This document shows, piece after piece, positions 8,480-28,959 of a stretch of 64,000 nucleotides of DNA. The position numbers were made by a program, and so were the translations under genes. The DNA is from Psococerastis gibbosa (lineage: Eukaryota > Arthropoda > Insecta > Psocodea > Psocidae). The stretch's first letter is position 1. The number at the start of each line of letters is the position of its first letter. Below the pieces are notes generated by a model, which was not told the origin of the DNA, made no database searches, and worked only from the letters and a program-made list of their open reading frames with translations. Location of the stretch: the NCBI GenBank assembly GCA_963971405.1, contig OZ020489.1:4278001-4342000 (forward strand). Reading direction: 5' to 3'.

Positions 8480-8513
8480 ACCTGTCGTAACTCAACACAG
8501 GTATTACCTACAG

Positions 8514-9376: not shown

Positions 9377-9667
9377 AACCAAGGACTCAGAAGATTTTAC
9401 AATTATGGCTATTCACTCGAGAATGAATTTGCCACATACCAAATTTTTAAATTATCTAAGGTTTATTACATTAAATACAATTTCTGCAACCCTATCTTTC
9501 ACAAGATCTGCAAGAACTTCTACATGAACATCAATGAGAATAATGATGTTTTGTTCGGTAAGTACCATGTCGTATACTTACTCGAGAATGAATCGGGTAC
9601 ATGCAGAGGCTTGAAGGAATTCGCAAGGTTTTATTACATGAAATACTATAGATGGAACAAAGTCAGA
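9377..9667 (+). pseudogene. decayed tandem-repeat ORF, interrupted by the palindromic element
   Basis: Open after a TAA at 9374, this frame encodes repeats of about 62 aa of the type 'FCNPIFHKICKNFY...GKYHVVYLLENE...RFYYMKYYRWNK'. In the uninterrupted copy (32624 onward) the frame continues to 33082. Here it is cut by the element after 'aagtcaga'. The first in-frame Met is at 9524. The protein family is not recognised and no splice structure was established. Confidence 0.5.
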
Positions 9668-9785
9668 AGTAGAGTAGAAAGGGGGTTTCTGGCGCTTATC
9701 CCACCCCCCGTCGTGCTATCCCATCTATCCCCCGCGGGTGGTCTATCTATTTTTGTGTGTTACCCCTCGTGGGTGGTCTGAGGTT
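9668..9785. repeat. left terminal inverted repeat region
   Basis: It starts AGTAG[AG]TAGAAAG and continues with 'ggtttctggcgctta', then C-rich 'cccaccccccgtcg' and 'tacccctcgtgggtggtctg'. All these blocks recur inverted at 24213-24299, with indels. Polintons also begin with AG, but a 2-bp match is weak evidence. Confidence 0.75.
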
Positions 9786-10031
9786 CTGGCACCATGATCG
9801 TTTTTTTTTTTATAATTACTAATTTGTGAGATACAGAGTTATTTTTTTTTATTTTTTTATTTTTTTTATTTTATTTTTTATTTTTATTTATTTATTTTTT
9901 TTTTATTTTTTTTTTAATGGTGTTAATTGAATTAAAACATTTCTTTCTTCTTCTTTCTTCTTCGTGGGTGGTCTTTGTACCCCGCCGTGCTTATCCCGTT
10001 GTCTATCTATCTCTGTACCAGGTGGGTGGTC
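9736..10031 (+). promoter_or_regulatory. subterminal GGGTGGTC motif cluster
   Basis: The octamer gggtggtc occurs at 9736, 9771, 9966 and 10024 (and again at 11272), usually preceded by 'cgt' and neighboured by 'ctatc'. Its complement recurs on the right side at 22661, 23907, 23965, 24098, 24151 and 24213. Clustered subterminal motifs are typical binding sites for an element's own replication or transposition proteins; that role is an inference here. Confidence 0.45.
9786..9916. repeat. T/A low-complexity spacer
   Basis: An almost pure T tract with scattered A, lying just outside the point where arm identity begins. The right end has a different A-rich spacer plus three tandem motif units, so the two ends are not mirror images here. 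Confidence 0.6.
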
Positions 10032-10090
10032 TATGACGCACCCCCCCCCCCCTCCCCGTACAGCCAGACATCTAGAAGGTTCTAAATGTG

Positions 10091-10197
10091 TCGTTACAAA
10101 AGGCATCACCTTGGGTTGAGGAGCTTAGTTGAAGCCAAACCTTCATTCAAGACTCAAGTAATACCACTTTATACGTAAAATTGTATAATCTTACAAC
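10091..10197 (+). promoter_or_regulatory. upstream cassette copy 1 (before the OB-like gene)
   Basis: About 107 bp ending at the ATG. It shares, in order, 'tacaaaaggcatc', 'ccttgggttgaggagcttag', 'aaccttcattc', 'gtaataccactt' and a 'gtataatcttacaac' start-proximal part with the segment in front of PolB (11281-11382). Identity over the first 60 bp is about 90% by eye. It is probably a shared promoter/5'UTR that lets both genes be expressed together. Confidence 0.6.
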
Positions 10198-10503
10198 ATG
10201 ACATCTCTATTCAATAAAGTTAATGCTATCAACCAAGTAGCCGGGCCTACCATACCAATGCGAAAGCTAGTGATTGGAGTTAAATACCTAATATTGAAAA
10301 TAGTGCAAATCGAAAAAACAGAATATGGACCAGCTGTAAAAGTCATACTGCGAGGATTGGAAAAAGAAGTCGTGGAATGTTTTGTGCCTCAACAATATCT
10401 GCCAGCCTTTCAACAAAGTGAAGTTACTCCAGGAGCTGAGATGTATCTTATCGTTTCAAGCCATCGGGGAAAAAATAGTGTCAACCTACAGATCATAGAA
10501 TGA
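10198..10503 (+). CDS. putative OB-fold ssDNA-binding-like protein (101 aa), left arm
   Basis: A small protein of 101 aa. The core pattern LVIGVKYLI (24-32) ... TEYGPAVKVIL (41-51) ... CFVPQQYLPAF (around 62-72) resembles a family of small arthropod-element proteins with 'L-x-G-x-x-Y ... T-x-Y-G-x-x-V ... L-P-x-x-Y', which I read as an OB-like beta-barrel. There is no signal peptide, membrane segment or zinc site. It would coat single-stranded DNA or act as a replication accessory; this is inferred from fold pattern and from standing next to a DNA polymerase, not shown. The start is set by the first ATG, directly after the upstream cassette shared with PolB. An identical copy lies at 23437-23742 on the minus strand. 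It could alternatively be a transcription or terminal-protein factor of the element. Confidence 0.65.
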   Translation: MTSLFNKVNAINQVAGPTIPMRKLVIGVKYLILKIVQIEKTEYGPAVKVILRGLEKEVVECFVPQQYLPAFQQSEVTPGAEMYLIVSSHRGKNSVNLQIIE

Positions 10504-10775
10504 ATATTTCATGATGTATTATTATTGTAAACTACAGAAATAATGTAAATATATGAATAATTTCTATATATATTTTTGTTCTTGTTTTATTAATTGCATA
10601 ATTAGTTTTAAGCTTATAGTTAGATGATGATGAGTATTAAAAACTAATGGTTGAAAGAAACAAGCTATTGCTTCAGTCATAATCGAGTACTTGAACGGTG
10701 AAGGGTTATCTTAATCATAGACTATGAAATGATGTAAATCAAATAATTAAACGAGTACATTAGCTAATTAATTTT
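10504..10775. other. AT-rich 3' region of the OB-like gene
   Basis: No coding sequence. AT-rich, with several TAATAA/TAAA-like stretches that could provide polyadenylation, but no clear single signal can be chosen. Confidence 0.35.
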
Positions 10776-11166
10776 AATAAATCTATCCGAAGCATATGTT
10801 TATGGGAAGTATTGATTTGGTAAACAAATAACAGAGTGCAGGTTCAAACCTGTTGTGAATCACCAGGTGCATATAACTCTGTACAGTCGTCTAATGGTTC
10901 AAACAAACAAGCCATTAATAAATCTACCCCTCGCTGACAGTCCATTGTAAGCTAAAGTGATTTTTGTTTTCGTAAATCTATCCAACACTTAGGTTGAAGG
11001 GAAGTATTGATTTGGCAAACAAATAACAGAGTGCAGGTTCAAACCTGTTGTGAATCACCAGGTGCATATAACTCTGTACAGCCGTCTAATGGTTCAAACA
11101 AACAAGCCATTAATAAATCTACCCCTCGCTGACAGTCCATTGTAAGCTAAAGTGATTTTTGTTTTT
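10776..11166. repeat. 195-bp direct repeat, two units
   Basis: Two tandem copies with an exact 195-nt shift (for example 'ggttcaaacc' at 10841 and 11036). Each contains a pol III box-B-like GGTTCAAACC inside the palindrome caggttcaaacctg, the small palindrome caccaggtg, and an outer stem acagagt ... actctgt. The unit could fold as a three-armed hairpin. It sits between the two genes and is mirrored at 22774-23164. Confidence 0.75.
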
Positions 11167-11280
11167 GCATTAGTTGCAATCGATCGTTAGAAAATGAATG
11201 GTGTCTTAACAACATATTATCCGCTTCGTGATGGACAATCTATCCCTGTACCCTTACCATCTATCCTTCGTGGGTGGTCG

Positions 11281-11382
11281 TCGCTACAAAAGGCATCGCC
11301 TTGGGTTGAGGAGCTTAGTTGAAACCGAACCTTCATTCGCGTAATACCACTTCAGTGTAGTGAATTTGTGTAATCGTACAGC
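11281..11382 (+). promoter_or_regulatory. upstream cassette copy 2 (before PolB)
   Basis: The same module as 10091-10197, including 'ccttgggttgaggagcttag' and 'gtaataccactt', ending at the PolB ATG. A gggtggtc motif (11272) immediately precedes it, as gggtggtc at 10024 precedes copy 1 at a larger distance. Duplication of the whole regulatory block is the simplest origin. Confidence 0.6.
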
Positions 11383-14300
11383 ATGGAATCGAAGAAAAGG
11401 AAACTGAACGCGAGGGAATATGTGTGTAGAATATGTGCTGTGAGTTTCACACTAAATTGCAATTTAAAAAGACATGTCATAAACAAACATGGAGTTAGTA
11501 TTATACCATGCAAAAAATGTAAAGCCACATTCACATGCAGAGAGGACCTATCTCATCATATATTGCAGCGGCATACATCAGCAAATCACGGGATGGAAAT
11601 TGTACAAACTCGCCCAAAACTGACATCTGCTGGGAATGGAGAGGACTGCAAGGCATGCGGGGGCAAAATCAACAACTCCAGTCCACTTACAGTTCTGTGT
11701 AAAGAATGTTCATCTATCTTTTCGTGTAAGTATGAGAATCCTGTATCTGTTAAAACCCTTGAGTGTAAATATATTTGTGAATTCTGTTCGGTCCCTTTTG
11801 CTCGGAAGTATAGTTTGAAAGTCCACATATTAAGCATACATATTATTAATTGTTTGAATTGCAAGAAATTGTTTATGAGGGAAGATTTTACTAATCATAA
11901 GAATAATTGCACAATTATGAGCGGGGGAGCACTATCCAACGAGGAGAACTTTTTATGCAAAACATCTATAGCTCTAGATGGTGTAGTAAAACAATACAAT
12001 TATAAAAACATAACCATACATGATCCCGTTGTATATTTAAATAATATGGAAGGTGAGGTTGATTCTATTACAACTGAAAACATTAAACTTTTTAATGCAA
12101 TTAAATGGTATGTAGCCTTACACATTAAATTTGAACGCGGACCCGACAATAATAAAAACTATACTGAAGCATGGTTTCATGCTAAAAACGAACAACTTTT
12201 CCTCACTGATGACTCCACAATAAAATATCAACAAATGATTGAACAAATTTTAGTAAAAATAGATAAATTTCAAGCAATGGGAAGCGGGTGGGTGTTGAAA
12301 TCTTTAAAACATTTTGTTATTTTTATTGCTGAATATAATCCATGCAGTGGTAGTAGTTACATCCCTTTACCCAAAAAAATCTATAACACTAAAGCAGTAA
12401 TCAATATTAAAAATGACGATCTCAAATGTTTTATATGGTCAATTTTAGCATACTTACATCCAGTAAGTCGGGATGCTCAGCGGGTTTATAATTATAAAAA
12501 GTATGAAAAAGAGTTAGATATGAAAGGTATAACTTACCCAGTATCTTTGCAAGTCATTTCAAAATTTGAAAAAAATAATAATATTGGAGTAAATGTGTTT
12601 GGTTATGATCACAGACTGTACCCATTATATTTATCACAAAGTCACCATTATAATAAGCAGGTGGATCTGCTTTACATAACGGAAGACGAAAATTCACATT
12701 ATTGTCTTATTAAAAATTTCAACAAACTTAATTTCTCAATCACTAAACATAAGGAACAAAAGTTTTATTGTCGTTGGTGCATACACGCCTTTAGTAGTGC
12801 TGAACGCTTACATGAACATAAGCCACTCTGCTCAAGACATGATCCTCAAAAAACCACATTTCCAATTCAGGAGAAAAGCACTATGAAATTTGATAAGGCA
12901 CAATATATGATCCCTGTAGCATATAGAATATATGCCGATTTCGAGAGCATTCTCAGTCCCGTTGAAGGGACTATTTGTAACACTGAAAAATTATCTGCAC
13001 ATATACCATCAGGGTTTTGTTATGTTGTTGTAGATATCAATGGGAATAAGTTTAAAGAACCGGTAGTTTACAGGGGAGCTAATGCTGTTGATGTGTTTTT
13101 GAAATCGTTATTAAATGTTAAGGATGAAATTTTAAACATTTATAAAAATATTAAAGCAGTAATTATGACTGACGAGGATAGAGAAAATTTTAAAAACTCT
13201 GTCATTTGTAATGTTTGTCAAAAACCACTAGGAAATGATCGTGTAATAGACCACTGTCATATAACGGGGAAATATAGACAAGCATTACATAATGTTTGTA
13301 ATATGAGCAATTTTCGAACTCCAAAACATATCCCCGTTTTTATGCATAACTTAAAACGTTATGATGGTCATCTTATCATGGAAGGGGTTGGGAAACTAAA
13401 AAATATGAAAATTACTTGTATAGCTAAAACTATGGAGGAATATATAGCCTTTAGTATTGGAGAGTTACGCTTTTTAGACACTTATCAATTTATGGCCTCC
13501 TCTTTAGATTCATTAGTCAAAAATCTTGTTGATGCGGATAAAAATAAATTTAAAATTATGAAAACATGTTTTGTGGGTGAAAAATTAGACTTGATGTTGA
13601 GGAAGGGTGTCTTCCCCTATGAATATATAACGCACGAATCAAAATTTAATGAGGAACACTTACCTCCAATTGATGCATTTTTTAGTCAATTAACTCAAGA
13701 GGGGATTTCACAAGAAAAATATGAACATGCTCAAAAGGTGTGGAATGCTTTTAGTATAAAGAATTTAGGAGAATACCAAGACTTGTATGTATTAACAGAC
13801 ACCCTTCTCCTTTGCGATGTTTTTGAAGCCTTTAGAGCCTTATGTTTTGAAAACGATAACCTCGAAATTTGTCACATGTACACAGCACCAGGGCTAGCTC
13901 TTCAGAGCTGTCTGAAAATGACAGGAGTAGAACTTGAGCTATTGAGCGAACCTGATATGTATTTGTTTTGTGAGGCTGGGATTCGCGGGGGTATAAGTAT
14001 GATTTCAAAAAGATTTGCGGAAAGCAACAATAAATACTTAAAAAAATTTGACTCAAATAAGCCATCCAAATTTATAGTATATTGGGATTGCACTAACTTA
14101 TACGGACATGCGATGCGTCAATTTTTACCTATTAGTGGGTTTCGCTGGATGGAGGAGGAAGAAATCAAAAACTTTAATGTAATGCTCGCACCTGATGAGG
14201 GCGATGATGGGTTCATATTACAGGTGGACATGGAATATCCACAAAAATTACATGATTTACATAATGAATACCCACTAGCAGCTGAACATTGTGTTGTAAC

Positions 14301-15363
14301 ATCAGACATGATTTCCCCCTATTGTAAGGAATTTCTCGCTGAAAATGATATATCTTTAACATCCAACTTCTCAAAGCTTATTCCCAACTTAAACGATAAA
14401 CACAACTATATAATACATTATCGAAATTTGAAGCAATGTTTAGAATTGGGATTAAAATTAAAATGTATACATAAAATTTTAGCTTTTAAGCAAAGCGCTT
14501 GGATGCGACCCTTTATCGATTTTAACACAGAAAAACGGAAATTAGCTTGTAATGATTTCGAGAAGGATTTTTATAAATTGAAAATTAATAGTATGTATGG
14601 GAAGACAATGGAGAATGTTAGAAATCACGCAAAATTAGAGTTAGTTAACACTGCCAAACGAGCTCGTAAACTTATCTCATCCCCTGCATTTAAAGATTTT
14701 AAGATTTTTTCAAACGATTTAATAGCAGTCCGGTCAAAAAAAACTAATATTTTGCTAAACAAGCCAATATTTATTGGCCTAACCGTTCTCGAACTATCCA
14801 AGGTAGTTATGTATGAATTTCATTATAACTTTGTAAAACAAATGTATGGTGATAAAGCTGCACTGATTTTAACAGATACAGATTCGCTCGTTTATGAGGT
14901 TGAGAGTGATGATTTGTACACTGATTTAAAACCATATCCCCATTTATTTGATAACTCAGTATATCCTCCGAACCATCTCTTATACAATATTGAAAATAAA
15001 AAGAAAGTGGGAACGTTCAAAGATGAAAATGCTCAATCTCACATTTTACAATGTGTTGCTTTACGCCCAAAATTGTATTCCCTTTTAGAGGAGGGAAAGG
15101 AGAAGAAAGTGGGCAAAGGTATAGTTCGTTCAACCCTTAAACATCATATTAACCATCAAGACTATTACAATACCTTATTTAAGCCTTGCATAGCAAAAGA
15201 CTCACGTAAACCAATGTTCCGTATTCAAAGTAGAGATCATAAGCTTTTTACAATTAAACAGCAAAAAGTCACTCTTAGTCCTTATGATGATAAACGGTAT
15301 GTGTGTCGTAATGGAATTGATAGTTTAGCTCATGGTCATTATCGCATTATAGATATGTCTTAG
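11383..15363 (+). CDS. zinc-finger / endonuclease VII / family B DNA polymerase (1326 aa), left arm
   Basis: A replicative polymerase of the protein-primed type seen in Polinton-like elements. Zinc sites: C2H2 at C15/C18/H31/H36 and C43/C46/H59/H64; CxxC pairs C89/C92 and C106/C109; C2H2 at C132-H153; C2HC at C157-C176; another finger from C463. A segment with C349 (DDLKCFIWS) and H439 (SHYCLI) resembles a papain/OTU-like Cys-His pair, tentatively. Proofreading exonuclease: YADFE (D519, E521), HNLKRYDGHL (N656, D661), Y-DLYVLTD (Y798, D806 region). An HNH endonuclease VII-like insert, CNVC (609-612) ... DHCH (623-626) ... C639, sits inside the exonuclease region. Polymerase motifs: A DCTNLYG (D902), B KINSMYG (1067-1073), C TDTDS (D1165, D1167), then KKKVGTFKDE and ALRPKLYS. 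All catalytic residues are present with no stop or frameshift, so it is likely active. The start is the first ATG after the shared upstream cassette. Identical to the copy at 18577-22557. Confidence 0.93.
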   Translation: MESKKRKLNAREYVCRICAVSFTLNCNLKRHVINKHGVSIIPCKKCKATFTCREDLSHHILQRHTSANHGMEIVQTRPKLTSAGNGEDCKACGGKINNSSPLTVLCKECSSIFSCKYENPVSVKTLECKYICEFCSVPFARKYSLKVHILSIHIINCLNCKKLFMREDFTNHKNNCTIMSGGALSNEENFLCKTSIALDGVVKQYNYKNITIHDPVVYLNNMEGEVDSITTENIKLFNAIKWYVALHIKFERGPDNNKNYTEAWFHAKNEQLFLTDDSTIKYQQMIEQILVKIDKFQAMGSGWVLKSLKHFVIFIAEYNPCSGSSYIPLPKKIYNTKAVINIKNDDLKCFIWSILAYLHPVSRDAQRVYNYKKYEKELDMKGITYPVSLQVISKFEKNNNIGVNVFGYDHRLYPLYLSQSHHYNKQVDLLYITEDENSHYCLIKNFNKLNFSITKHKEQKFYCRWCIHAFSSAERLHEHKPLCSRHDPQKTTFPIQEKSTMKFDKAQYMIPVAYRIYADFESILSPVEGTICNTEKLSAHIPSGFCYVVVDINGNKFKEPVVYRGANAVDVFLKSLLNVKDEILNIYKNIKAVIMTDEDRENFKNSVICNVCQKPLGNDRVIDHCHITGKYRQALHNVCNMSNFRTPKHIPVFMHNLKRYDGHLIMEGVGKLKNMKITCIAKTMEEYIAFSIGELRFLDTYQFMASSLDSLVKNLVDADKNKFKIMKTCFVGEKLDLMLRKGVFPYEYITHESKFNEEHLPPIDAFFSQLTQEGISQEKYEHAQKVWNAFSIKNLGEYQDLYVLTDTLLLCDVFEAFRALCFENDNLEICHMYTAPGLALQSCLKMTGVELELLSEPDMYLFCEAGIRGGISMISKRFAESNNKYLKKFDSNKPSKFIVYWDCTNLYGHAMRQFLPISGFRWMEEEEIKNFNVMLAPDEGDDGFILQVDMEYPQKLHDLHNEYPLAAEHCVVTSDMISPYCKEFLAENDISLTSNFSKLIPNLNDKHNYIIHYRNLKQCLELGLKLKCIHKILAFKQSAWMRPFIDFNTEKRKLACNDFEKDFYKLKINSMYGKTMENVRNHAKLELVNTAKRARKLISSPAFKDFKIFSNDLIAVRSKKTNILLNKPIFIGLTVLELSKVVMYEFHYNFVKQMYGDKAALILTDTDSLVYEVESDDLYTDLKPYPHLFDNSVYPPNHLLYNIENKKKVGTFKDENAQSHILQCVALRPKLYSLLEEGKEKKVGKGIVRSTLKHHINHQDYYNTLFKPCIAKDSRKPMFRIQSRDHKLFTIKQQKVTLSPYDDKRYVCRNGIDSLAHGHYRIIDMS

Positions 15364-15600
15364 GTTTAAAAGTTTGTTTTAAGTGATTGTATGTAAAGAC
15401 ATTGATTTCTTTTAAAATATGTGTATTATAAAATTTGTATATCATAAAATGGTTTACATTCGTTTAGCTCATGGTCATTATTGTATTATAGATAAGTCTT
15501 AGGCTTAAAAGCTTGTTTTAAGTGATTGTATGAAAAGACATTGATTTCTTTTAAAATATGTGTATTATAAAATTTATATATCATAAAATGGTTTACATTC
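15322..15600 (+). repeat. 139-bp tandem duplication over the PolB C-terminus and 3'UTR
   Basis: The last codons (LAHGHYRIIDMS, stop) and the following 3'UTR are repeated 139 nt downstream, where the copy would read LAHGHYCIIDKS, stop, but is not joined to an ORF. The duplicate sits entirely in the 3'UTR. The repeated 'ttaaaatatgtgtattataa' may carry the processing signal. Mirrored at 18340-18618. Confidence 0.75.
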
Positions 15601-15950
15601 ATTTACAATAGTTGATGTACAATACCAGTTAAAGGTACATATTCATATAAGCAGTCGCTGATGAGTAGACAGTCCCTTTATTTGCCATGCAGACAACCCT
15701 TTATATATTGGAGTGCATAAGGTCGGTGGCCATTTCAGTCCCCCTCGCATTAAGATTATGACACATCGCTATTAATTCAGGTACGCCGATATAATAAGTG
15801 CACTCAGCATCTTAAAAGAAATGTATTAATCCCACAATAGGTGTTCAATATACCCACCAGCCGTGTTTATAAAAATGAATTTTCAATAATCCCAACTAAG
15901 TCTCAGTTTCTCACAATAGGTGTGCAATATACCAGGCAGTCGTGTTTTCT
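15601..15950. other. non-coding inner segment of the left arm
   Basis: No ORF. A phrase of about 45 bp, 'cacaataggtg(t)tcaatata...cca', occurs twice (around 15834 and 15913) and a shortened form is reused within the central array near 16357. Confidence 0.45.
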
Positions 15951-17989
15951 ATGTTAGATTTAGTTACATTGGGCTAGGACAGGTTAAGTTATAATATTAG
16001 GCTAGGTTAAATTTTTATATCAAGTTAGGATAGGTTACATTGGATTAGGATAGGCCAGATTAGGTTACATTGGGTTAGGTTAGCTGTTTACCTAGATTAA
16101 ATTCATCATTTTTTTTTTAACAAAAATATTTTTATATCAAATAAATATGATGTTAAGTTAGGTTACATTGAATTAGGATAGGTTAGATTAGGTTACATTG
16201 GATTAGGATAGGCCAGATTACGTTACATTGGGTTAGGTTAGCTGTTTACCTAGATTAAATTCATCATTTTTTTAACAAAAATATTTTTATATCAAATAAA
16301 TATGATGTTAAGTTAGGTTACATTGAATTAGGATAGGTTAGATTAGGTTACATTGGGTGCAATATACCAGGCAGTTGTGTTTTCTATGTTAGATTTAGTT
16401 ACATTGGGCTAGGACAGGTTAAGTTTTAATATTAGTCTAGGTTAAATTTTTATATCAAGTTAGGGTAGGTTACATTGGATTAGGATAGGCCAGATTAGGT
16501 TACATTGGGTTAGGTTAGCTGTTTACCTAGATTAAATTCATCATTTCTTTTTTTAAAAAAAATATTTTTTATATCAAATAAATATAATGTTAAGTTAGGT
16601 TACATTGAATTAGGATAGGTTAGATTAGGTTACATTGGATTAGGATAGGCCAGATTAGGTTACATTGGGTTAGGTTAGCTGTTTACCTAGATTAAATTCA
16701 TCATTTTTTTAACAAAAATATTTTTATATCAAATAAATATGATGTTAAGTTAGGTTACATTGAATTAGGATAGGTTAGATTAGGTTACATTGGATTAGGA
16801 TAGGCCAGATTAGGTTACATTGGGTTAGGTTAGCTGTTTACCTAGATTACATTCATCATTTTTTTAACAAAAATATTTTTATATCAAATAAATATGACGT
16901 TAAGTTAGGTTACATTGAATTAGGATAGGTTACATTAGGTTACATTGGGTTAGGATAGGTTAAGTTAGCCGCTAACTTAACCTATCCTAACCCAATGTAA
17001 CCTAATGTAACCTATCCTAATTCAATGTAACCTAACTTAACGTCATATTTATTTGATATAAAAATATTTTTGTTAAAAAAATGATGAATGTAATCTAGGT
17101 AAACAGCTAACCTAACCCAATGTAACCTAATCTGGCCTATCCTAATCCAATGTAACCTAATCTAACCTATCCTAATTCAATGTAACCTAACTTAACATCA
17201 TATTTATTTGATATAAAAATATTTTTGTTAAAAAAATGATGAATTTAATCTAGGTAAACAGCTAACCTAACCCAATGTAACCTAATCTGGCCTATCCTAA
17301 TCCAATGTAACCTAATCTAACCTATCCTAATTCAATGTAACCTAACTTAACATTATATTTATTTGATATAAAAAATATTTTTTTTAAAAAAAGAAATGAT
17401 GAATTTAATCTAGGTAAACAGCTAACCTAACCCAATGTAACCTAATCTGGCCTATCCTAATCCAATGTAACCTACCCTAACTTGATATAAAAATTTAACC
17501 TAGACTAATATTAAAACTTAACCTGTCCTAGCCCAATGTAACTAAATCTAACATAGAAAACACAACTGCCTGGTATATTGCACCCAATGTAACCTAATCT
17601 AACCTATCCTAATTCAATGTAACCTAACTTAACATCATATTTATTTGATATAAAAATATTTTTGTTAAAAAAATGATGAATTTAATCTAGGTAAACAGCT
17701 AACCTAACCCAATGTAACGTAATCTGGCCTATCCTAATCCAATGTAACCTAATCTAACCTATCCTAATTCAATGTAACCTAACTTAACATCATATTTATT
17801 TGATATAAAAATATTTTTGTTAAAAAAAAAATGATGAATTTAATCTAGGTAAACAGCTAACCTAACCCAATGTAACCTAATCTGGCCTATCCTAATCCAA
17901 TGTAACCTATCCTAACTTGATATAAAAATTTAACCTAGCCTAATATTATAACTTAACCTGTCCTAGCCCAATGTAACTAAATCTAACAT
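15951..17989. repeat. central TTAGG-like repeat array with palindrome centre
   Basis: Degenerate units of about 150-160 bp rich in ttaggtta, ttaggata and 'aggttacattgg', each with an AT-rich spacer (tcatttttttaacaaaaata) and 'gctgtttacctagatta'. About five to six units lie on each side. The mirror point is 'gttagc-c-gctaac' at 16964-16976, with a single unpaired base (16970). The TTAGG core equals the arthropod telomeric repeat, but the array is not a regular (TTAGG)n. Confidence 0.8.
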
Positions 17990-18339
17990 AGAAAACACGA
18001 CTGCCTGGTATATTGCACACCTATTGTGAGAAACTGAGACTTAGTTGGGATTATTGAAAATTCATTTTTATAAACACGGCTGGTGGGTATATTGAACACC
18101 TATTGTGGGATTAATACATTTCTTTTAAGATGCTGAGTGCACTTATTATATCGGCGTACCTGAATTAATAGCGATGTGTCATAATCTTAATGCGAGGGGG
18201 ACTGAAATGGCCACCGACCTTATGCACTCCAATATATAAAGGGTTGTCTGCATGGCAAATAAAGGGACTGTCTACTCATCAGCGACTGCTTATATGAATA
18301 TGTACCTTTAACTGGTATTGTACATCAACTATTGTAAAT

Positions 18340-18618
18340 GAATGTAAACCATTTTATGATATATAAATTTTATAATACACATATTTTAAAAGAAATCAAT
18401 GTCTTTTCATACAATCACTTAAAACAAGCTTTTAAGCCTAAGACTTATCTATAATACAATAATGACCATGAGCTAAACGAATGTAAACCATTTTATGATA
18501 TACAAATTTTATAATACACATATTTTAAAAGAAATCAATGTCTTTACATACAATCACTTAAAACAAACTTTTAAACCTAAGACATATCTATAATGCGATA
18601 ATGACCATGAGCTAAACT
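18340..18618 (-). repeat. 139-bp tandem duplication, right arm
   Basis: Mirror image of 15322-15600: the PolB C-terminal codons and 3'UTR in two copies. Confidence 0.75.
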
Positions 18619-21600
18619 ATCAATTCCATTACGACACACATACCGTTTATCATCATAAGGACTAAGAGTGACTTTTTGCTGTTTAATTGTAAAAAGCTTA
18701 TGATCTCTACTTTGAATACGGAACATTGGTTTACGTGAGTCTTTTGCTATGCAAGGCTTAAATAAGGTATTGTAATAGTCTTGATGGTTAATATGATGTT
18801 TAAGGGTTGAACGAACTATACCTTTGCCCACTTTCTTCTCCTTTCCCTCCTCTAAAAGGGAATACAATTTTGGGCGTAAAGCAACACATTGTAAAATGTG
18901 AGATTGAGCATTTTCATCTTTGAACGTTCCCACTTTCTTTTTATTTTCAATATTGTATAAGAGATGGTTCGGAGGATATACTGAGTTATCAAATAAATGG
19001 GGATATGGTTTTAAATCAGTGTACAAATCATCACTCTCAACCTCATAAACGAGCGAATCTGTATCTGTTAAAATCAGTGCAGCTTTATCACCATACATTT
19101 GTTTTACAAAGTTATAATGAAATTCATACATAACTACCTTGGATAGTTCGAGAACGGTTAGGCCAATAAATATTGGCTTGTTTAGCAAAATATTAGTTTT
19201 TTTTGACCGGACTGCTATTAAATCGTTTGAAAAAATCTTAAAATCTTTAAATGCAGGGGATGAGATAAGTTTACGAGCTCGTTTGGCAGTGTTAACTAAC
19301 TCTAATTTTGCGTGATTTCTAACATTCTCCATTGTCTTCCCATACATACTATTAATTTTCAATTTATAAAAATCCTTCTCGAAATCATTACAAGCTAATT
19401 TCCGTTTTTCTGTGTTAAAATCGATAAAGGGTCGCATCCAAGCGCTTTGCTTAAAAGCTAAAATTTTATGTATACATTTTAATTTTAATCCCAATTCTAA
19501 ACATTGCTTCAAATTTCGATAATGTATTATATAGTTGTGTTTATCGTTTAAGTTGGGAATAAGCTTTGAGAAGTTGGATGTTAAAGATATATCATTTTCA
19601 GCGAGAAATTCCTTACAATAGGGGGAAATCATGTCTGATGTTACAACACAATGTTCAGCTGCTAGTGGGTATTCATTATGTAAATCATGTAATTTTTGTG
19701 GATATTCCATGTCCACCTGTAATATGAACCCATCATCGCCCTCATCAGGTGCGAGCATTACATTAAAGTTTTTGATTTCTTCCTCCTCCATCCAGCGAAA
19801 CCCACTAATAGGTAAAAATTGACGCATCGCATGTCCGTATAAGTTAGTGCAATCCCAATATACTATAAATTTGGATGGCTTATTTGAGTCAAATTTTTTT
19901 AAGTATTTATTGTTGCTTTCCGCAAATCTTTTTGAAATCATACTTATACCCCCGCGAATCCCAGCCTCACAAAACAAATACATATCAGGTTCGCTCAATA
20001 GCTCAAGTTCTACTCCTGTCATTTTCAGACAGCTCTGAAGAGCTAGCCCTGGTGCTGTGTACATGTGACAAATTTCGAGGTTATCGTTTTCAAAACATAA
20101 GGCTCTAAAGGCTTCAAAAACATCGCAAAGGAGAAGGGTGTCTGTTAATACATACAAGTCTTGGTATTCTCCTAAATTCTTTATACTAAAAGCATTCCAC
20201 ACCTTTTGAGCATGTTCATATTTTTCTTGTGAAATCCCCTCTTGAGTTAATTGACTAAAAAATGCATCAATTGGAGGTAAGTGTTCCTCATTAAATTTTG
20301 ATTCGTGCGTTATATATTCATAGGGGAAGACACCCTTCCTCAACATCAAGTCTAATTTTTCACCCACAAAACATGTTTTCATAATTTTAAATTTATTTTT
20401 ATCCGCATCAACAAGATTTTTGACTAATGAATCTAAAGAGGAGGCCATAAATTGATAAGTGTCTAAAAAGCGTAACTCTCCAATACTAAAGGCTATATAT
20501 TCCTCCATAGTTTTAGCTATACAAGTAATTTTCATATTTTTTAGTTTCCCAACCCCTTCCATGATAAGATGACCATCATAACGTTTTAAGTTATGCATAA
20601 AAACGGGGATATGTTTTGGAGTTCGAAAATTGCTCATATTACAAACATTATGTAATGCTTGTCTATATTTCCCCGTTATATGACAGTGGTCTATTACACG
20701 ATCATTTCCTAGTGGTTTTTGACAAACATTACAAATGACAGAGTTTTTAAAATTTTCTCTATCCTCGTCAGTCATAATTACTGCTTTAATATTTTTATAA
20801 ATGTTTAAAATTTCATCCTTAACATTTAATAACGATTTCAAAAACACATCAACAGCATTAGCTCCCCTGTAAACTACCGGTTCTTTAAACTTATTCCCAT
20901 TGATATCTACAACAACATAACAAAACCCTGATGGTATATGTGCAGATAATTTTTCAGTGTTACAAATAGTCCCTTCAACGGGACTGAGAATGCTCTCGAA
21001 ATCGGCATATATTCTATATGCTACAGGGATCATATATTGTGCCTTATCAAATTTCATAGTGCTTTTCTCCTGAATTGGAAATGTGGTTTTTTGAGGATCA
21101 TGTCTTGAGCAGAGTGGCTTATGTTCATGTAAGCGTTCAGCACTACTAAAGGCGTGTATGCACCAACGACAATAAAACTTTTGTTCCTTATGTTTAGTGA
21201 TTGAGAAATTAAGTTTGTTGAAATTTTTAATAAGACAATAATGTGAATTTTCGTCTTCCGTTATGTAAAGCAGATCCACCTGCTTATTATAATGGTGACT
21301 TTGTGATAAATATAATGGGTACAGTCTGTGATCATAACCAAACACATTTACTCCAATATTATTATTTTTTTCAAATTTTGAAATGACTTGCAAAGATACT
21401 GGGTAAGTTATACCTTTCATATCTAACTCTTTTTCATACTTTTTATAATTATAAACCCGCTGAGCATCCCGACTTACTGGATGTAAGTATGCTAAAATTG
21501 ACCATATAAAACATTTGAGATCGTCATTTTTAATATTGATTACTGCTTTAGTGTTATAGATTTTTTTGGGTAAAGGGATGTAACTACTACCACTGCATGG

Positions 21601-22557
21601 ATTATATTCAGCAATAAAAATAACAAAATGTTTTAAAGATTTCAACACCCACCCGCTTCCCATTGCTTGAAATTTATCTATTTTTACTAAAATTTGTTCA
21701 ATCATTTGTTGATATTTTATTGTGGAGTCATCAGTGAGGAAAAGTTGTTCGTTTTTAGCATGAAACCATGCTTCAGTATAGTTTTTATTATTGTCGGGTC
21801 CGCGTTCAAATTTAATGTGTAAGGCTACATACCATTTAATTGCATTAAAAAGTTTAATGTTTTCAGTTGTAATAGAATCAACCTCACCTTCCATATTATT
21901 TAAATATACAACGGGATCATGTATGGTTATGTTTTTATAATTGTATTGTTTTACTACACCATCTAGAGCTATAGATGTTTTGCATAAAAAGTTCTCCTCG
22001 TTGGATAGTGCTCCCCCGCTCATAATTGTGCAATTATTCTTATGATTAGTAAAATCTTCCCTCATAAACAATTTCTTGCAATTCAAACAATTAATAATAT
22101 GTATGCTTAATATGTGGACTTTCAAACTATACTTCCGAGCAAAAGGGACCGAACAGAATTCACAAATATATTTACACTCAAGGGTTTTAACAGATACAGG
22201 ATTCTCATACTTACACGAAAAGATAGATGAACATTCTTTACACAGAACTGTAAGTGGACTGGAGTTGTTGATTTTGCCCCCGCATGCCTTGCAGTCCTCT
22301 CCATTCCCAGCAGATGTCAGTTTTGGGCGAGTTTGTACAATTTCCATCCCGTGATTTGCTGATGTATGCCGCTGCAATATATGATGAGATAGGTCCTCTC
22401 TGCATGTGAATGTGGCTTTACATTTTTTGCATGGTATAATACTAACTCCATGTTTGTTTATGACATGTCTTTTTAAATTGCAATTTAGTGTGAAACTCAC
22501 AGCACATATTCTACACACATATTCCCTCGCGTTCAGTTTCCTTTTCTTCGATTCCAT
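18577..22557 (-). CDS. zinc-finger / endonuclease VII / family B DNA polymerase (1326 aa), right arm
   Basis: The protein is residue-for-residue identical to that of 11383-15363, encoded on the minus strand and converging on it. The same intact motifs are present (exonuclease D519/E521, HNH 609-639, polymerase D902, K1067-G1073, D1165/D1167). Identity at synonymous sites as well means the two arms are very young relative to each other, are being homogenised by gene conversion, or are one sequence represented twice by the assembler. Either copy alone would suffice for function. Confidence 0.9.
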   Translation of the reverse strand: MESKKRKLNAREYVCRICAVSFTLNCNLKRHVINKHGVSIIPCKKCKATFTCREDLSHHILQRHTSANHGMEIVQTRPKLTSAGNGEDCKACGGKINNSSPLTVLCKECSSIFSCKYENPVSVKTLECKYICEFCSVPFARKYSLKVHILSIHIINCLNCKKLFMREDFTNHKNNCTIMSGGALSNEENFLCKTSIALDGVVKQYNYKNITIHDPVVYLNNMEGEVDSITTENIKLFNAIKWYVALHIKFERGPDNNKNYTEAWFHAKNEQLFLTDDSTIKYQQMIEQILVKIDKFQAMGSGWVLKSLKHFVIFIAEYNPCSGSSYIPLPKKIYNTKAVINIKNDDLKCFIWSILAYLHPVSRDAQRVYNYKKYEKELDMKGITYPVSLQVISKFEKNNNIGVNVFGYDHRLYPLYLSQSHHYNKQVDLLYITEDENSHYCLIKNFNKLNFSITKHKEQKFYCRWCIHAFSSAERLHEHKPLCSRHDPQKTTFPIQEKSTMKFDKAQYMIPVAYRIYADFESILSPVEGTICNTEKLSAHIPSGFCYVVVDINGNKFKEPVVYRGANAVDVFLKSLLNVKDEILNIYKNIKAVIMTDEDRENFKNSVICNVCQKPLGNDRVIDHCHITGKYRQALHNVCNMSNFRTPKHIPVFMHNLKRYDGHLIMEGVGKLKNMKITCIAKTMEEYIAFSIGELRFLDTYQFMASSLDSLVKNLVDADKNKFKIMKTCFVGEKLDLMLRKGVFPYEYITHESKFNEEHLPPIDAFFSQLTQEGISQEKYEHAQKVWNAFSIKNLGEYQDLYVLTDTLLLCDVFEAFRALCFENDNLEICHMYTAPGLALQSCLKMTGVELELLSEPDMYLFCEAGIRGGISMISKRFAESNNKYLKKFDSNKPSKFIVYWDCTNLYGHAMRQFLPISGFRWMEEEEIKNFNVMLAPDEGDDGFILQVDMEYPQKLHDLHNEYPLAAEHCVVTSDMISPYCKEFLAENDISLTSNFSKLIPNLNDKHNYIIHYRNLKQCLELGLKLKCIHKILAFKQSAWMRPFIDFNTEKRKLACNDFEKDFYKLKINSMYGKTMENVRNHAKLELVNTAKRARKLISSPAFKDFKIFSNDLIAVRSKKTNILLNKPIFIGLTVLELSKVVMYEFHYNFVKQMYGDKAALILTDTDSLVYEVESDDLYTDLKPYPHLFDNSVYPPNHLLYNIENKKKVGTFKDENAQSHILQCVALRPKLYSLLEEGKEKKVGKGIVRSTLKHHINHQDYYNTLFKPCIAKDSRKPMFRIQSRDHKLFTIKQQKVTLSPYDDKRYVCRNGIDSLAHGHYRIIDMS

Positions 22558-22659
22558 GCTGTACGATTACACAAATTCACTACACTGAAGTGGTATTACG
22601 CGAATGAAGGTTCGGTTTCAACTAAGCTCCTCAACCCAAGGCGATGCCTTTTGTAGCGA
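22558..22659 (-). promoter_or_regulatory. upstream cassette before right-arm PolB
   Basis: Mirror of 11281-11382, read on the minus strand. Confidence 0.6.
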
Positions 22660-22773
22660 CGACCACCCACGAAGGATAGATGGTAAGGGTACAGGGATAG
22701 ATTGTCCATCACGAAGCGGATAATATGTTGTTAAGACACCATTCATTTTCTAACGATCGATTGCAACTAATGC

Positions 22774-23164
22774 AAAAACAAAAATCACTTTAGCTTACAA
22801 TGGACTGTCAGCGAGGGGTAGATTTATTAATGGCTTGTTTGTTTGAACCATTAGACGGCTGTACAGAGTTATATGCACCTGGTGATTCACAACAGGTTTG
22901 AACCTGCACTCTGTTATTTGTTTGCCAAATCAATACTTCCCTTCAACCTAAGTGTTGGATAGATTTACGAAAACAAAAATCACTTTAGCTTACAATGGAC
23001 TGTCAGCGAGGGGTAGATTTATTAATGGCTTGTTTGTTTGAACCATTAGACGACTGTACAGAGTTATATGCACCTGGTGATTCACAACAGGTTTGAACCT
23101 GCACTCTGTTATTTGTTTACCAAATCAATACTTCCCATAAACATATGCTTCGGATAGATTTATT
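22774..23164. repeat. 195-bp direct repeat, right arm
   Basis: Mirror of 10776-11166, with the same box-B-like decamer and potential three-armed hairpin in each of two units. Confidence 0.75.
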
Positions 23165-23436
23165 AAAATTAATTAGCTAATGTACTCGTTTAATTATTTG
23201 ATTTACATCATTTCATAGTCTATGATTAAGATAACCCTTCACCGTTCAAGTACTCGATTATGACTGAAGCAATAGCTTGTTTCTTTCAACCATTAGTTTT
23301 TAATACTCATCATCATCTAACTATAAGCTTAAAACTAATTATGCAATTAATAAAACAAGAACAAAAATATATATAGAAATTATTCATATATTTACATTAT
23401 TTCTGTAGTTTACAATAATAATACATCATGAAATAT

Positions 23437-23742
23437 TCATTCTATGATCTGTAGGTTGACACTATTTTTTCCCCGATGGCTTGAAACGATAAGATACATC
23501 TCAGCTCCTGGAGTAACTTCACTTTGTTGAAAGGCTGGCAGATATTGTTGAGGCACAAAACATTCCACGACTTCTTTTTCCAATCCTCGCAGTATGACTT
23601 TTACAGCTGGTCCATATTCTGTTTTTTCGATTTGCACTATTTTCAATATTAGGTATTTAACTCCAATCACTAGCTTTCGCATTGGTATGGTAGGCCCGGC
23701 TACTTGGTTGATAGCATTAACTTTATTGAATAGAGATGTCAT
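23437..23742 (-). CDS. putative OB-fold ssDNA-binding-like protein (101 aa), right arm
   Basis: Identical to the product of 10198-10503, minus strand, upstream of the right-arm PolB and in the same direction. It is preceded by its own copy of the shared cassette (23743-23849). The function is inferred as for the left copy: a probable single-stranded-DNA-binding accessory to the neighbouring polymerase. Confidence 0.63.
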   Translation of the reverse strand: MTSLFNKVNAINQVAGPTIPMRKLVIGVKYLILKIVQIEKTEYGPAVKVILRGLEKEVVECFVPQQYLPAFQQSEVTPGAEMYLIVSSHRGKNSVNLQIIE

Positions 23743-23849
23743 GTTGTAAGATTATACAATTTTACGTATAAAGTGGTATTACTTGAGTCTTGAATGAAGG
23801 TTTGGCTTCAACTAAGCTCCTCAACCCAAGGTGATGCCTTTTGTAACGA
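23743..23849 (-). promoter_or_regulatory. upstream cassette before the right-arm OB-like gene
   Basis: Mirror of 10091-10197. Confidence 0.6.
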
Positions 23850-24021
23850 CACATTTAGAACCTTCTAGATGTCTGGCTGTACGGGGAGGGGGGGGGGTGC
23901 GTCATAGACCACCCACCTGGTACAGAGATAGATAGACAACGGGATAAGCACGGCGGGGTACAAAGACCACCCACGAAGAAGAAAGAAGAAGAAAGAAATG
24001 TTTTAATTCAATTAACACCAT

Positions 24022-24055
24022 AAATTAATTAAAATTAATTAAAAAAACATAAAAC

Positions 24056-24096
<41 letters not shown>

Positions 24097-24299
24097 AGAC
24101 CACCCACGAGGGGTAGCATGACGGGGGGTGGAAAAAAAAAAAAAAAATTAGACCACCCACGAGGGGTAGCATGACGGGGGGTGGAAAAAAAAAAAAAAAA
24201 AAAAAAAAATCAGACCACCCACGAGGGGTAGCATGACGGGGGGTGGGGTAGCTCGACGGGGGGTGGGGTAAGCGCCAGAAACCCCCTTTCTATACTACT
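24022..24299. repeat. right terminal region with three tandem motif units and the terminal inverted repeat
   Basis: Three units of 'gaccacccacgaggggtagc' plus 'atgacggggggtgg' are separated by A-runs (starts 24098, 24151, 24213), then the terminal repeat ends in 'ctatactact'. The left end has one clear equivalent unit. The two ends were therefore assembled from different sequence, not mirrored. Confidence 0.75.
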
Positions 24300-24304
24300 G
24301 CCCT

Positions 24305-24504
24305 NNNNNNNNNNNNNNNNNNNNNNNNNNNNNNNNNNNNNNNNNNNNNNNNNNNNNNNNNNNNNNNNNNNNNNNNNNNNNNNNNNNNNNNNNNNNNNNN
24401 NNNNNNNNNNNNNNNNNNNNNNNNNNNNNNNNNNNNNNNNNNNNNNNNNNNNNNNNNNNNNNNNNNNNNNNNNNNNNNNNNNNNNNNNNNNNNNNNNNNN
24501 NNNN
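24305..24504. other. assembly gap (200 N)
   Basis: A run of N of round length, the usual scaffolding placeholder. Only five bases (gccct) separate the element's right end from it, so the true right flank is not available. Confidence 0.98.
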
Positions 24505-24935
24505 ATCAGCTACAATACAAATTGCCTTTCTTTTTGCACCAACCCATTCACTCCAATGGATCTCGAAAGATCTCTCAGCAGATCTGTTGCGTAGAATCTG
24601 CCTCTATGCACCGGGCCTTACGCTTACTCCTGAAAATAATCACGTGATAGTGGGACTCCCCCATTCGTCTGAAATTTTAGTTATTTAAACAAGCATGAGA
24701 TCTATTATGCAACAATTGTGGGTCACCGGCACATCTGCCATTATTCCACACCACCAAATTTAATTTAAGGTCAACGGTGCCGTTAGTCTCATGTGAATTG
24801 TAATTTGATTATACGTATACTAGTCTGGTAGGTAGAGAATAAGCATTGAAGATGATGGGTTAGTTTTCCGATGAGAAGGAACCTGTTTATTTTCGCAGTG
24901 ATAGTGACAGTAAAAAATAGAAATATATCTTAGAG

Positions 24936-24937
<2 letters not shown>

Positions 24938-24971
<34 letters not shown>

Positions 24972-25449
24972 GCAATGCCGTTTAGGCCGTTTAGGCGTTT
25001 AGGTATATTGAAAAATTAAATGGTTAGGTACGGTAGGTTAGGTTCGTTAATGTGATAATATAATAATAATATAATATAATAATGGATATTATAGGAGGTT
25101 GATGAGATTAGTAGTAGTCAAAAATGAGAGGATAGTTCGGGTAGCGGTTTCGTCGTCACGTAGTAGGGTTGAGAGGGATGTTTGTGGGGGCCAGGTTCTT
25201 TAGCGGGTGAGGTTTTGGCATTCGACAAGGATGTGGGCAACTGTGTTTTCTGCACCACAGTGGCATAATGACGGGGTTTCTCCCGCCATCAGAAAGCCGT
25301 GTGTGAGCCGTGTGTGGCCCAGACGTAGCCGAGCCATGACAACTTCCTCATGTCTGATGTTTCAGGTTGCTGTGGTCCAGCCTCCTATCCGCGGCTTAAC
25401 TCTTAGAGAAATAAAATCCTGTCAGTTTGAGGACAAGCCAAGTATATAC
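24938..25449 (-). pseudogene. LINE 3' end (duplicate of 1694-2205)
   Basis: The same RNase H-tail fragment (RLRLGHTRLTHGF motif) and T-run as the first copy. Confidence 0.8.
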
Positions 25450-28128
25450 TAATAATTAAGTATATTTAGTATTTTTCCAGATTTATGGTATCTGACGGTA
25501 TATATGGGGTACCTGATATCCGAAATACATCGAGTAGTTTGCTCACAAATCGACAAACAGACGGACAGAAAACCCGACCGACAGACAGACATTTCGTAAA
25601 TTCCACTTTTTTTTGTTACTGAGAACTCAAAGCAAGTAAATCCGGTGAAATCACAAAGCTTTCCTTACTCTAACGTACCTAGAAATGGGAAAGCAAAAAT
25701 GAATCCCTGCGGGTTCGAATTCACGTCACCCGGGTGACAGTCCAAATCGCCTACCACTTCACCAATAGCAGAACCAAGATGGCGGAAGGAATGGCAAAGC
25801 ACAAGACATTGACCCGCAGCGCCGGTTAAATATATGGGATGGTCAATGAACGTGGAGGCACACCTTCCAGCGTCGCTGCGACCTTGACTCCAGCGCAATG
25901 CTGAGCTTATGGTGACGTCTTATGGTACACCTGTTGCATGACTCCACCATTCATTACCTTACATAAACAGACAACAAAATACGTGCACGTCTTCTGCTAT
26001 AAACAAACACGGCCGGCTGACAAGCGTAGGCGATATTATGGTGCCTTATTTAGCAGTCAATCAAGAAGCTGTCTATAAAGGCATATTCTACGGCAACAGA
26101 TACGCAGCAGATCTGCTGGGAGGTGGTGCACAGCTAGCTAAAACCGGCTGCAGCAGATTGTGTGTGCAATAACCCATTTGCCCCAAAGTACGATATCTTG
26201 ACAGATCGGCTGCGTATCTGCTTCAGTTGATTGTGTGTGCAATAACCCATTTGCCCCAATGTACGATATCTTGACAGATCTGCTGCGTATCTCCTACAGT
26301 AGAATCTACGTACATATGATCAGTGATCACCAATGGTTATCCACAGATTTGCTGCGCATTTGTTGCCGTAGAGAGTGCATTTATTTGATCACCAATGTAT
26401 ACCTACATATCTGCTACGTATCTGCTGCAGTAAAATCTGAATTTGATTACCAAACACATCGATAGATCTGTTGCCGTAGAATCTGCCCTTCTGCACCTGG
26501 CCTTAAGGTCCCAATCATGCCTCAAGTAGCGGCGAATCCGATAAAAAAATTTCAAGACATGTACAAACTAGGGTAACATTTAATTTTTGTAATTAAATTA
26601 ATTTAAATTAGTCAGTTAATTTTAATTAGTCAGTTTCGAGATGTAGAATGTCGACGAAATTGCGTTGGATGGATAAAGGGAGGGCAGCTGCCCCCCCCCC
26701 CCAAATTGGGTGAATCTATTGTAAGTTAATTTATTACGCTCTGATTTAATTAATATTACAATACATAATATGTTTTTCCTATTTTGACCCACAACTCCCC
26801 CCCCCCCCAAATGGGCTGGATCCGTCCCTGGTTAGATAATGTTTTGATAAATTAAGTAAACATATTTTTGATAGAATTAGCCTATGAGTGCAGTAAATAA
26901 ACATAGGCTACTCATGGAAGAATTCGTGGGAAAAATTCAGAATTTTACATCAATCACTTCTTGTTGAAAATGATGCCCTATGTATGTTTTCGTGTAAAAA
27001 TAAATCCAAGTGCATGGGCTACGAGCTACCCTACTTTGAGTTGTATTTATCAAATGCAGCGGTCTATACACCTACAAGTCAAGTTAACCCACTTGTAAAC
27101 GACGAAGCATGAAAATATACGTATATTATTATTATTATTACATACTGAGCGTACAGTGTTATATAGAAATACCATTAATACACTTACCCCCCCCCCCTCC
27201 TCCCCAAAAAGGGCCCACCCACAAATATCTGGCTTCTTTAATTTCATATGCAAGCAAAATATCAACTTTACCCCAAACGCCAAAATTCAAGCAGATGCAA
27301 TACAATATTTTCCACTGAAAAAAATTTGTGTCGGGAAAGGATTCGAATTGGAGGCAGTATGAGCCACAGGCAAGAGCGCTACCTATTGAGCCAATGCAGG
27401 AGACTATGGAGGTAACTGATAGACCTTTCCTCCACAACTCACATAACGGCAGCCAATTAAAACTTATGACGGATAAGGATTCGAACCCAAAACAGCAAGA
27501 GCCGCAGACAACCAGCGCTACATATCGTCAGGAAAATGTGTAGAGCTGTGGTACAGACTCCGACTTTCACCCGTAAGGTTGTTGGTTCGAGTCTCACTTG
27601 CTACATTTTCTGGCCATGCTTCGGAGGGCATGTAACGCAGGCGGTCCCAGGCTTTCCTAGTTGAGTGTAAGAGAGGACTTATTTATTATTTATTTATATT
27701 GAAGCGACTTATTGTTTTAGGTCAATCACGTTTTTCCTTAACAAATCATATAACGGCAGTCAATTAAAATATAATAAGATGCAAGATGATTCGAACCCAA
27801 GGTAGCACGCGCCACAGACAACAGCGCTACCCATTGAGCCGTAACAGCCGACTTATAGTGTAGATAACACTGTTAGGCCTATCACGTTTTCCCTTAACGG
27901 CACATGACGACAACCAATTCTAAAGCCACTCCGGATTACACAATATTCACGGGAAGAATGATAAGAAGTTACAGATAAAAACCAATATTCCGTTCAAGTT
28001 TCAAGATTCAAGAATGCTGTCCGTAGGTTAAAAAAGTTTTCGGTTATAAATATTGTGCAAAATAATGTTTTTTATTTTTTATTTATTTCGTTCTTACTGG
28101 TTACTTCACCAAGTGAGGGAAACATATT

Positions 28129-28959
28129 GAAAGAATCGGTCCGAATTTACTCGAACATGCTTTCCAATTTATCAAGTAGTAGCTAGAGAAAATGAGTAAT
28201 ATCATGGTAAATAATTTTCCTATAGTTAAATTTCCTATATTTCGGGGGGGGGGGGGGGGTTGTTCACCTGACGTCACTGGAGGTGAGGTAAATTCTAGAT
28301 AGGTCAGACCAACACATTACCACACAGCAATAATGGCAGGGCACGCAAATGCATTTTACCGTGAATTTTCATTTTTTCAAAGACATTGTCCTGTCCGGTT
28401 TCGTTACTCAATTGAACACCTAAAGCATGCCTGAAGGTAGAAATTATCGATTGAAAGGTTTCACAGAAAAATTATTTTTTAGTCACTTTTCATTAAAATT
28501 TAGTTCTTTTTATTTTTTCACCCCCAGAAGCAAACTATCAAGGGGCAAGCGACCCCCCGCATTTTGTCAACATTAATAACGACTACAATATATGTGAATT
28601 TAAAAGAAATCGTTGGAGCCGTTTTGGAGAAATATTTTTTTTAGACGTTTTTTATGAGTTTTTTGAAAATAAAACACCCCCAAGTTGGGTTAGCCCAAAA
28701 TTATTAAAAAAAAAATGGTCCCGAGGTATGATTTTTGTGAACCTACATGTCGAATTTCATCAAAATCGACCGAGTAGTTTGCCCGGAAATCGACGAACAG
28801 GCAGACAGACAGACAGACAGAGCAACAGACAGACATTTCGTAAAAACCACTTTTTTGGGTTCCTGGGACCTCAAAACGTGTAAATCCGTTGAAATCTCGG
28901 AATCGAAAATTGCGACCATCACAAAGCTTTCCTTATACTACGTATAAATTGGAAAACAA
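28129..28959 (-). mobile_element. TCTG-family element (duplicate of 4885-5715)
   Basis: Colinear duplicate; see 4885-5715. Confidence 0.7.

Follow-up and report, generated by a model that had tools for sequence, protein, structure and literature searches.

What kind of mobile element consists of nothing but its own inverted repeat, and what keeps its two arms alike? The question is raised by a near-perfect palindrome at positions 9668-24299 of a 64,000-nt stretch of the genome of the psocid insect Psococerastis gibbosa (GCA_963971405.1, contig OZ020489.1, positions 4,278,001 to 4,342,000; hereafter the window), in whose two arms a family-B DNA polymerase (PolB) gene faces its own mirror copy. 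The explanation that we favour, with a confidence slightly better than even, is a high-copy element derived from Mavericks/Polintons, which is devoid of integrase and virion genes, forms a complete palindrome, replicates through a snap-back hairpin and borrows its integrase. Directly visible in the assembly are insertions of ~14 kb that have (AGT)-type ends and are flanked by 6-bp target duplications; their arms run inward to a common dyad and are alike even in a diverged, coding-dead copy, and in the intact type each arm carries PolB and an open reading frame (ORF) of 101 aa.

The palindrome and its genes

The original prediction had described mirror arms around a single-base centre, and self-alignment bears this out exactly over 6,927 nt, the strict arms (10043-16969 and 16971-23897) being 100% complementary with 1 nt between them. 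With gaps allowed, the palindrome extends over 9845-24094 at 99.7% identity (13 mismatches, 20 gap openings), and at either extremity the last ~200 nt resemble each other without being identical and represent two terminal types. As a single strand, the 141 nt around the dyad are predicted to fold into a perfect hairpin with a 3-nt loop (-75.7 kcal/mol, z -23.8). The main parts of the element are:

9668..24299: whole palindromic element, 14,632 bp, 5'-AGTAGAGTAG... to ...CTATACTACT-3', delimited by an element-free copy of the site and by the terminal motif
9845..16969, + strand: left arm (strict part 10043-16969)
16970: dyad base in GGTTAAGTTAGC-C-GCTAACTTAACC; other copies have C or G there, depending on orientation
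16971..24094, - strand: right arm (strict part 16971-23897)
10198..10503, + strand: 101-aa ORF of the left arm, without known homologue
11383..15363, + strand: PolB ORF of the left arm, 1,326 aa, a Polinton-kind family-B DNA polymerase with a C2H2 finger-like N-terminus and an EndoVII-like segment at residues 605-641
18577..22557, - strand: PolB ORF of the right arm, 1,326 aa, same as in the left arm
23437..23742, - strand: 101-aa ORF of the right arm, same as in the left arm

A set of two genes per arm had been predicted, and both PolB (1,326 aa) and the 101-aa ORF are indeed intact in both arms. Apart from these, the listed ORFs of at least 80 aa comprise only a 92-aa frame on the strand opposite PolB, present in both arms, and one of 85 aa (9524-9781) that straddles the junction of host flank and left end. 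Neither the ORF list nor a Pfam scan of 9668-24299 revealed a recognisable integrase, capsid, packaging, protease or transposase ORF, which upholds the earlier remark that no integrase, capsid, packaging or transposase gene is visible.

Judged by sequence similarity, the element PolB is clearly homologous to family-B polymerases of the Polinton kind. Homologues at E<=0.001 make up 4,868 of the 7,990 proteins scored, the best at 48% identity and several of them with PF03175; the window protein itself gives only weak Pfam matches, to the finger and EndoVII models and under the curated cut-offs, and none to a Pfam polymerase family. In an alignment of 26 sequences, the acidic positions within YADFE and TDTDS, which we take to be catalytic, do not vary. 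For the 101-aa protein, a homologue search found none, and a single-sequence structure prediction (mean pLDDT 47) was not used. Its ORF was present in 25 of the 26 loci in which it was sought; none of the 25 has it interrupted, and no copy has more than 1 non-synonymous and 3 synonymous changes. Pieces of PolB are stop-free at loci L093 and L094 (6 and 11 non-synonymous versus 4 and 6 synonymous changes, respectively), have gapped codons at L046 and contain stops at L091; intact and broken PolB copies coexist, and measurable purifying selection is not demonstrated.

Copies, ends and target duplications

The genome search covered the element's own assembly (68 contigs, 409 Mb). It found the exact terminal motif 335 times (172 forward, 163 reverse) and the reversed control pattern not once, which excludes an origin by chance. 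Pairing was analysed for 100 listed termini of the 335, of which 82 form 41 facing pairs with a median spacing of 14.3 kb (28 pairs within 13.5-15.5 kb) and 18 are unpaired; 24 pairs also have a listed dyad or inner arm end, which is 6.0-8.4 kb away from either terminus in 18 and off centre in 6. The exact dyad motif is found 49 times genome-wide, 25 forward and 24 reverse, thus in even orientation. Twelve centre loci were fetched, and in the 11 with a readable dyad it is the same throughout, save for C or G by orientation, the remaining one (L044) being an N gap. With window positions 14000-15000 within PolB as the query, at least 40 matches were obtained among 40 scored of 419 candidates, all 100% identical over 1,001 nt; 26 of these 40, as listed, make up 13 facing pairs, 3.3-10.7 kb apart and including that of the window. 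The genome probably holds more than 100 copies, and the family has probably been active recently, since copies are identical and an element-free site exists.

We fetched the ends of 42 pairs and left out 3 with N within 0-5 nt of a terminus. Identical 6-bp flanks, each with a chance probability of about 1 in 4,096, were found in 23 of the 39 testable pairs. Two terminal types are present: AGTAGT, which includes the right end of the window element, and AGTAGA, seen at its left end (AG type). Target copies match in 5 of the 12 pairs of AG/AG type, 13 of the 21 of TA/TA type and 5 of the 6 mixed ones. The 23 matching pairs establish that inverted arms stand at the two ends of genuine insertions.

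These counts bear on the possibility that the palindromes are assembly artefacts, contigs having been folded back at a repeat. In its favour, the right flank of the window element is a gap, a 200-N gap lies within 4 of the 12 fetched centres, 16 of the 39 pairs are without target copies, and the hexamer CATTAG, which flanks the element of locus L015 on the left and that of L014 on the right, with ~46 kb between the two elements, looks like a case of wrongly partnered ends, suggesting that wrong flanks were joined across identical repeats. Against it stand the 23 exact target duplications, the 41 facing pairs among the 100 listed termini, the 49 dyads, and the left and right outer ends, which differ in several target-duplicated copies. 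Local chimeras seem to exist; as a full explanation, mis-assembly is rejected by target duplications and copy number, and we regard it as the least credible of the alternatives, with hardly any weight. Termini, dyads, PolB matches and target duplications together establish the all-arm element as a multicopy architecture, and none of the sampled copies, most of them read in part, has a unique centre with integrase or capsid genes.

For the window copy itself, the limits of the element follow from three further features:

9662..9667: left 6-bp target copy, GTCAGA, which is single at 32909-32914 in the element-free copy
24305..24504: assembly gap of 200 N, beginning 5 nt past the element
24505..32915, + strand: second copy of window 1261-9668, running on into the element-free site, with the insertion point after 32914

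Positions 1261-9668 and 24505-32915 align with 0 mismatches and one 3-nt gap, and at 32914/32915 the element-free site reads GTCAGA followed by ATTTGC. Because this second copy continues past the insertion point without an element, the element must start at 9668. On the right, the window offers only 5 nt before the N gap, and these (GCCCT) differ from the left target copy; as the contig ends 5 nt past the element, the right arm of the window is not tied to the insertion by a target duplication. The target-duplication proof of both arms therefore comes from other copies, not from this one.

The 8.4-kb identical duplication across the 200-N gap is probably a false one, in which two alleles, or contigs that overlap, were set one after the other. 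The insertion appears to be present in one of these contigs and absent from the other, and is then probably heterozygous. Long identical palindromes can break genome assemblies, and at five places (window position 24305 and loci L026, L031, L046 and L168) contig edges lie 0-5 nt outside an element terminus, which may reflect either the behaviour of the assembler's repeat graph or reads of free molecules.

Several loci have peculiarities of their own. Locus L046 (C2:35218632-35239411) holds three arms and an N gap within one pair of TACAAT target duplications, a nested or joined second element beginning 4 nt past the gap. The copies at C2:7920056-7933870 and C2:7947309-7961432 have the 6-bp left flank ACCCTC in common, as well as one dyad junction (L117, L118), and are probably a further duplicated locus. 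Dyads on the high-numbered contigs C23, C37, C43, C47, C59 and C66 all lie at positions below 43 kb, probably on short unplaced contigs.

How the arms are kept alike

The favoured explanation would proceed as follows. DNA synthesis by PolB would be protein-primed and begin at the AGTAG ends; the strand that it displaces, being self-complementary, would fold into a ~7-kb hairpin; copying back along the hairpin through its tip would yield a palindrome with both arms made from one strand, so that the arms stay alike; and the product would be inserted by the retroviral-type integrase of another element. Help in trans is implied by the occurrence of 6-bp duplications in an element with no integrase ORF.

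The strongest evidence on arm likeness comes from a diverged copy, C3:20779047-20793312, flanked by the duplication AGCGGA. Between its arms, an alignment of 6,506 nt has 8 gap openings and 0 mismatches, whereas the segments that it shares with the window arm are 91.3-99.6% identical; it is coding-dead, the longest PolB-like ORF being at most 158 aa. Both arms contain, letter for letter, a capsid-like stretch of 477 nt (positions 5353-5829 of L172, the fetched sequence of this copy), a frame of which matches the double-jelly-roll family PF21738 with an E-value of 1.6e-5, just under the curated cut-off. A frame-broken retrotransposon-like stretch is likewise present in both arms with 0 mismatches, gaps preventing letter identity; in our own reading, and with no Pfam match, it resembles the terminal part of a non-LTR retrotransposon. 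A further copy of this kind, C2:17555176-17569016 (TTCATT), has 0 mismatches over 1,499 nt of its outer pieces and 6 over 1,128 nt of its inner ones. The mirrored foreign fragments and the shared decay are most simply explained by copying of one arm from the other at a time when they were already present, and it is because a diverged, coding-dead copy is still palindromic that we regard arms as copied from one another.

Copies of this kind also speak against a single palindromic founder that was amplified very recently, leaving the arms too little time to diverge. The matches to the PolB query, at least 40 of them 100% identical over 1,001 nt, would agree with such a founder, but a coding-dead type with foreign fragments and segments at ~91% to the window arm still has near-identical arms, which contradicts it unless the diverged type formed a palindrome independently at the same dyad; we hold it to be very improbable.

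More broadly, the outer left and right pieces of 15 target-duplicated copies and the window were compared. The longest match between them is 98.1-100% identical in 12, 96.4-97.8% in 3 and absent in 1, the last being C2:16.38 Mb, whose right arm is mostly deleted; at C2:33.28 Mb there is 1 mismatch plus gaps. For many copies, another copy of the same subfamily matches an outer piece equally well.

Several observations weigh against the favoured explanation. Clearly unlike arms occur in the copies at C2:33.68 Mb (96.4%, 22 mismatches) and C2:14.86 Mb (97.8%, 12 mismatches), which look like hybrids. The copy C3:20779047-20793312, the only one fully fetched, has a 200-N gap in its left arm and 2 mismatches in the further 724 nt before the dyad, and one asymmetric change near the dyad is common to 8 of 20 inner ends. 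Given these unlike arms, mismatches and shared one-sided change, arms are not equalised in every cycle. Besides, no copy was read from target copy to target copy without a gap or unread stretch, and flanks are mismatched in 16 of the 39 testable pairs, one of them by a single base (7 of 12 AG/AG, 8 of 21 TA and 1 of 6 mixed pairs); these 16 weigh against treating each local assembled palindrome as proven.

The one-sided change and the unlike arms fit an alternative in which the palindromic family is real and replicates as a normal two-ended linear molecule, its arms being kept alike after insertion by gene conversion on the chromosome. This would, however, require efficient conversion at dispersed loci, given 0 mismatches over 6,927 nt in the window and over 6,506 nt in the diverged copy, a point that is qualified for the former in that the window copy itself is not tied to one insertion by a target duplication. 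We rate gene conversion as unlikely, with perhaps the standing of a serious minority view.

The original prediction had also proposed a 7.3-kb monomer as the unit, and a single-arm replicon with one protein-primed and one hairpin end, of which the palindromes are head-to-head dimers, can be weighed on the inner ends. We fetched 20 one-sided inner ends, the choice of loci requiring one intact side: 3 run into N, 7 continue with small changes and 10 depart from the mirror ~7-42 nt from the dyad. Six of the departing ends land kilobases off (L116, L120, L128, L130, L132, L133), L117 and L118 share a single junction at a distance of ~100 nt, and L123 and L134 slip to the adjacent repeat unit; two of the 12 fetched centres, L041 and L046, likewise break away 9-10 nt beyond the dyad. 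At least 7 nt of the opposite arm are exact in 19 of the 20; the exception, L115, has 3 nt followed by a 1-nt insertion. Another inner end, in L038, retains only 3 nt of the opposite arm.

A single-arm replicon would account for the one dyad shared by all 11 readable centres and found 49 times genome-wide, and for a copy with the duplication GTTGGC that consists of a full arm, the dyad and 349 nt of the other end. Against it, 19 of the 20 inner ends retain 7 nt or more of the opposite arm, the shortened copies look like deletion derivatives that retain the dyad, and the sampled target-duplicated copies have the terminal motif at both ends, though they were selected for it. No clean single-arm insertion was seen, the 18 unpaired of the 100 listed termini being left out of this count. 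The monomer is thus not supported as the unit, and the single-arm replicon seems to us rather improbable.

Returning to snap-back replication, the inner-end departures are suggestive, and only suggestive, of interrupted turn-round synthesis, because palindrome repair in cells also yields centre-proximal deletions, which would look alike, and because the loci were chosen with one intact side. More tentatively, at somewhat below even confidence, the family may represent a class of self-complementary eukaryotic mobile elements in which the single strand alone is a complete, double-stranded hairpin genome, protein-primed PolB snaps back at a fixed dyad, virion genes are dispensed with and the integrase is borrowed. 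If so, the likeness of the arms would be a direct product of the replication cycle. More generally, a full palindrome with two genes and probably over 100 copies would indicate that PolB and one small ORF suffice to sustain an element, would be a natural case of snap-back replication in a protein-primed replicon, and would make DNA self-copying and the acquisition of an integrase directly testable.

Relation to Polintons and other elements

Polintons are described as carrying PolB, an integrase and virion genes between inverted repeats, a plan from which a full palindrome with two genes departs. The element resembles Mavericks/Polintons in the kind of its PolB, its (AGT)-type ends, 6-bp target duplications, size (~15 kb) and inverted repeats; it differs in having no recognisable integrase, ATPase, protease or capsid ORF, and in being all inverted repeat, with its genes present twice and facing each other. 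Mavericks have 6-bp target duplications and the end motif 5'-(AGT)2 or (AG)3, as given in PMC8097293. The family has such duplications in 23 of 39 pairs, unreadable for the window's own copy, and one of its terminal types begins with AGTAGT, the other with AGTAGA. According to PMC4642659, all Polintons carry a retrovirus-like integrase; no such ORF was recognised in 9668-24299, and we therefore class the element as a Polinton derivative, not a Polinton. Neither ORF matches a capsid, packaging ATPase or protease, a capsid-like fragment having been seen in the coding-dead copy. The element probably replicates and integrates like a Polinton. The original prediction set it apart from Polinton relatives, which holds for the all-arm layout; in its (AGT)-type ends and 6-bp duplications it is closer to Mavericks/Polintons than was assumed.

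Two Polinton-like virus contigs from IMG/VR (L001, L002), found with a PolB alignment where a single sequence found 0 relatives, encode a PolB with 38-39% identity in the best segment across ~1,035 aa. Unlike the element, they have a single PolB and no long inverted repeat in the available part, and L001 carries an rve integrase and an A32-type ATPase. A PolB scan of bacterial and archaeal genome contigs gave 17 loci, all titled MAG. A palindrome across PolB was found in 0 of these 19 relatives (17 plus the 2 viral ones), the longest inverted match being 268 nt, which is weak evidence as most contigs are shorter than 7.2 kb.

The element also shares its Polinton/adintovirus-type PolB with bidnaviruses and adintoviruses, which are defined in PMC11071296 by a helicase and a capsid, or by a hexon and an integrase, respectively. 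Neither the hexon and integrase of adintoviruses nor the NS1 helicase and parvovirus-type capsid that accompany PolB in bidnaviruses were found among the element's ORFs by ORF list and Pfam. A literature search by titles and the starts of abstracts found no fully palindromic PolB element among the top-ranked open-access publications, which is not proof of absence.

Foldback transposons have long inverted repeats with internal tandem units, and the element resembles them in both respects; in contrast, its repeats code for a DNA polymerase, and only one base separates them. The repeats within the window element are:

10778..11165, + strand: 195-bp repeat in two copies, intergenic (mirror at 22775-23162)
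15922..16969, + strand: G-rich TTAGG/GGTTA-like tandem arrays with 155- and 437-bp units, adjacent to the dyad
16971..18018, - strand: the same arrays in mirror image on the other side of the dyad
24058-24246: minisatellite with A-runs, unit length 53-62 nt, within the right terminus; the left terminus has no such form

An Rfam scan of 9600-24400 gave no match at the gathering score, and a sigma-70-type scan was uninformative, with 41 found where 37.4 were expected. Outside the element, six or so tandem units of 121 bp occupy window positions 52762-53523.

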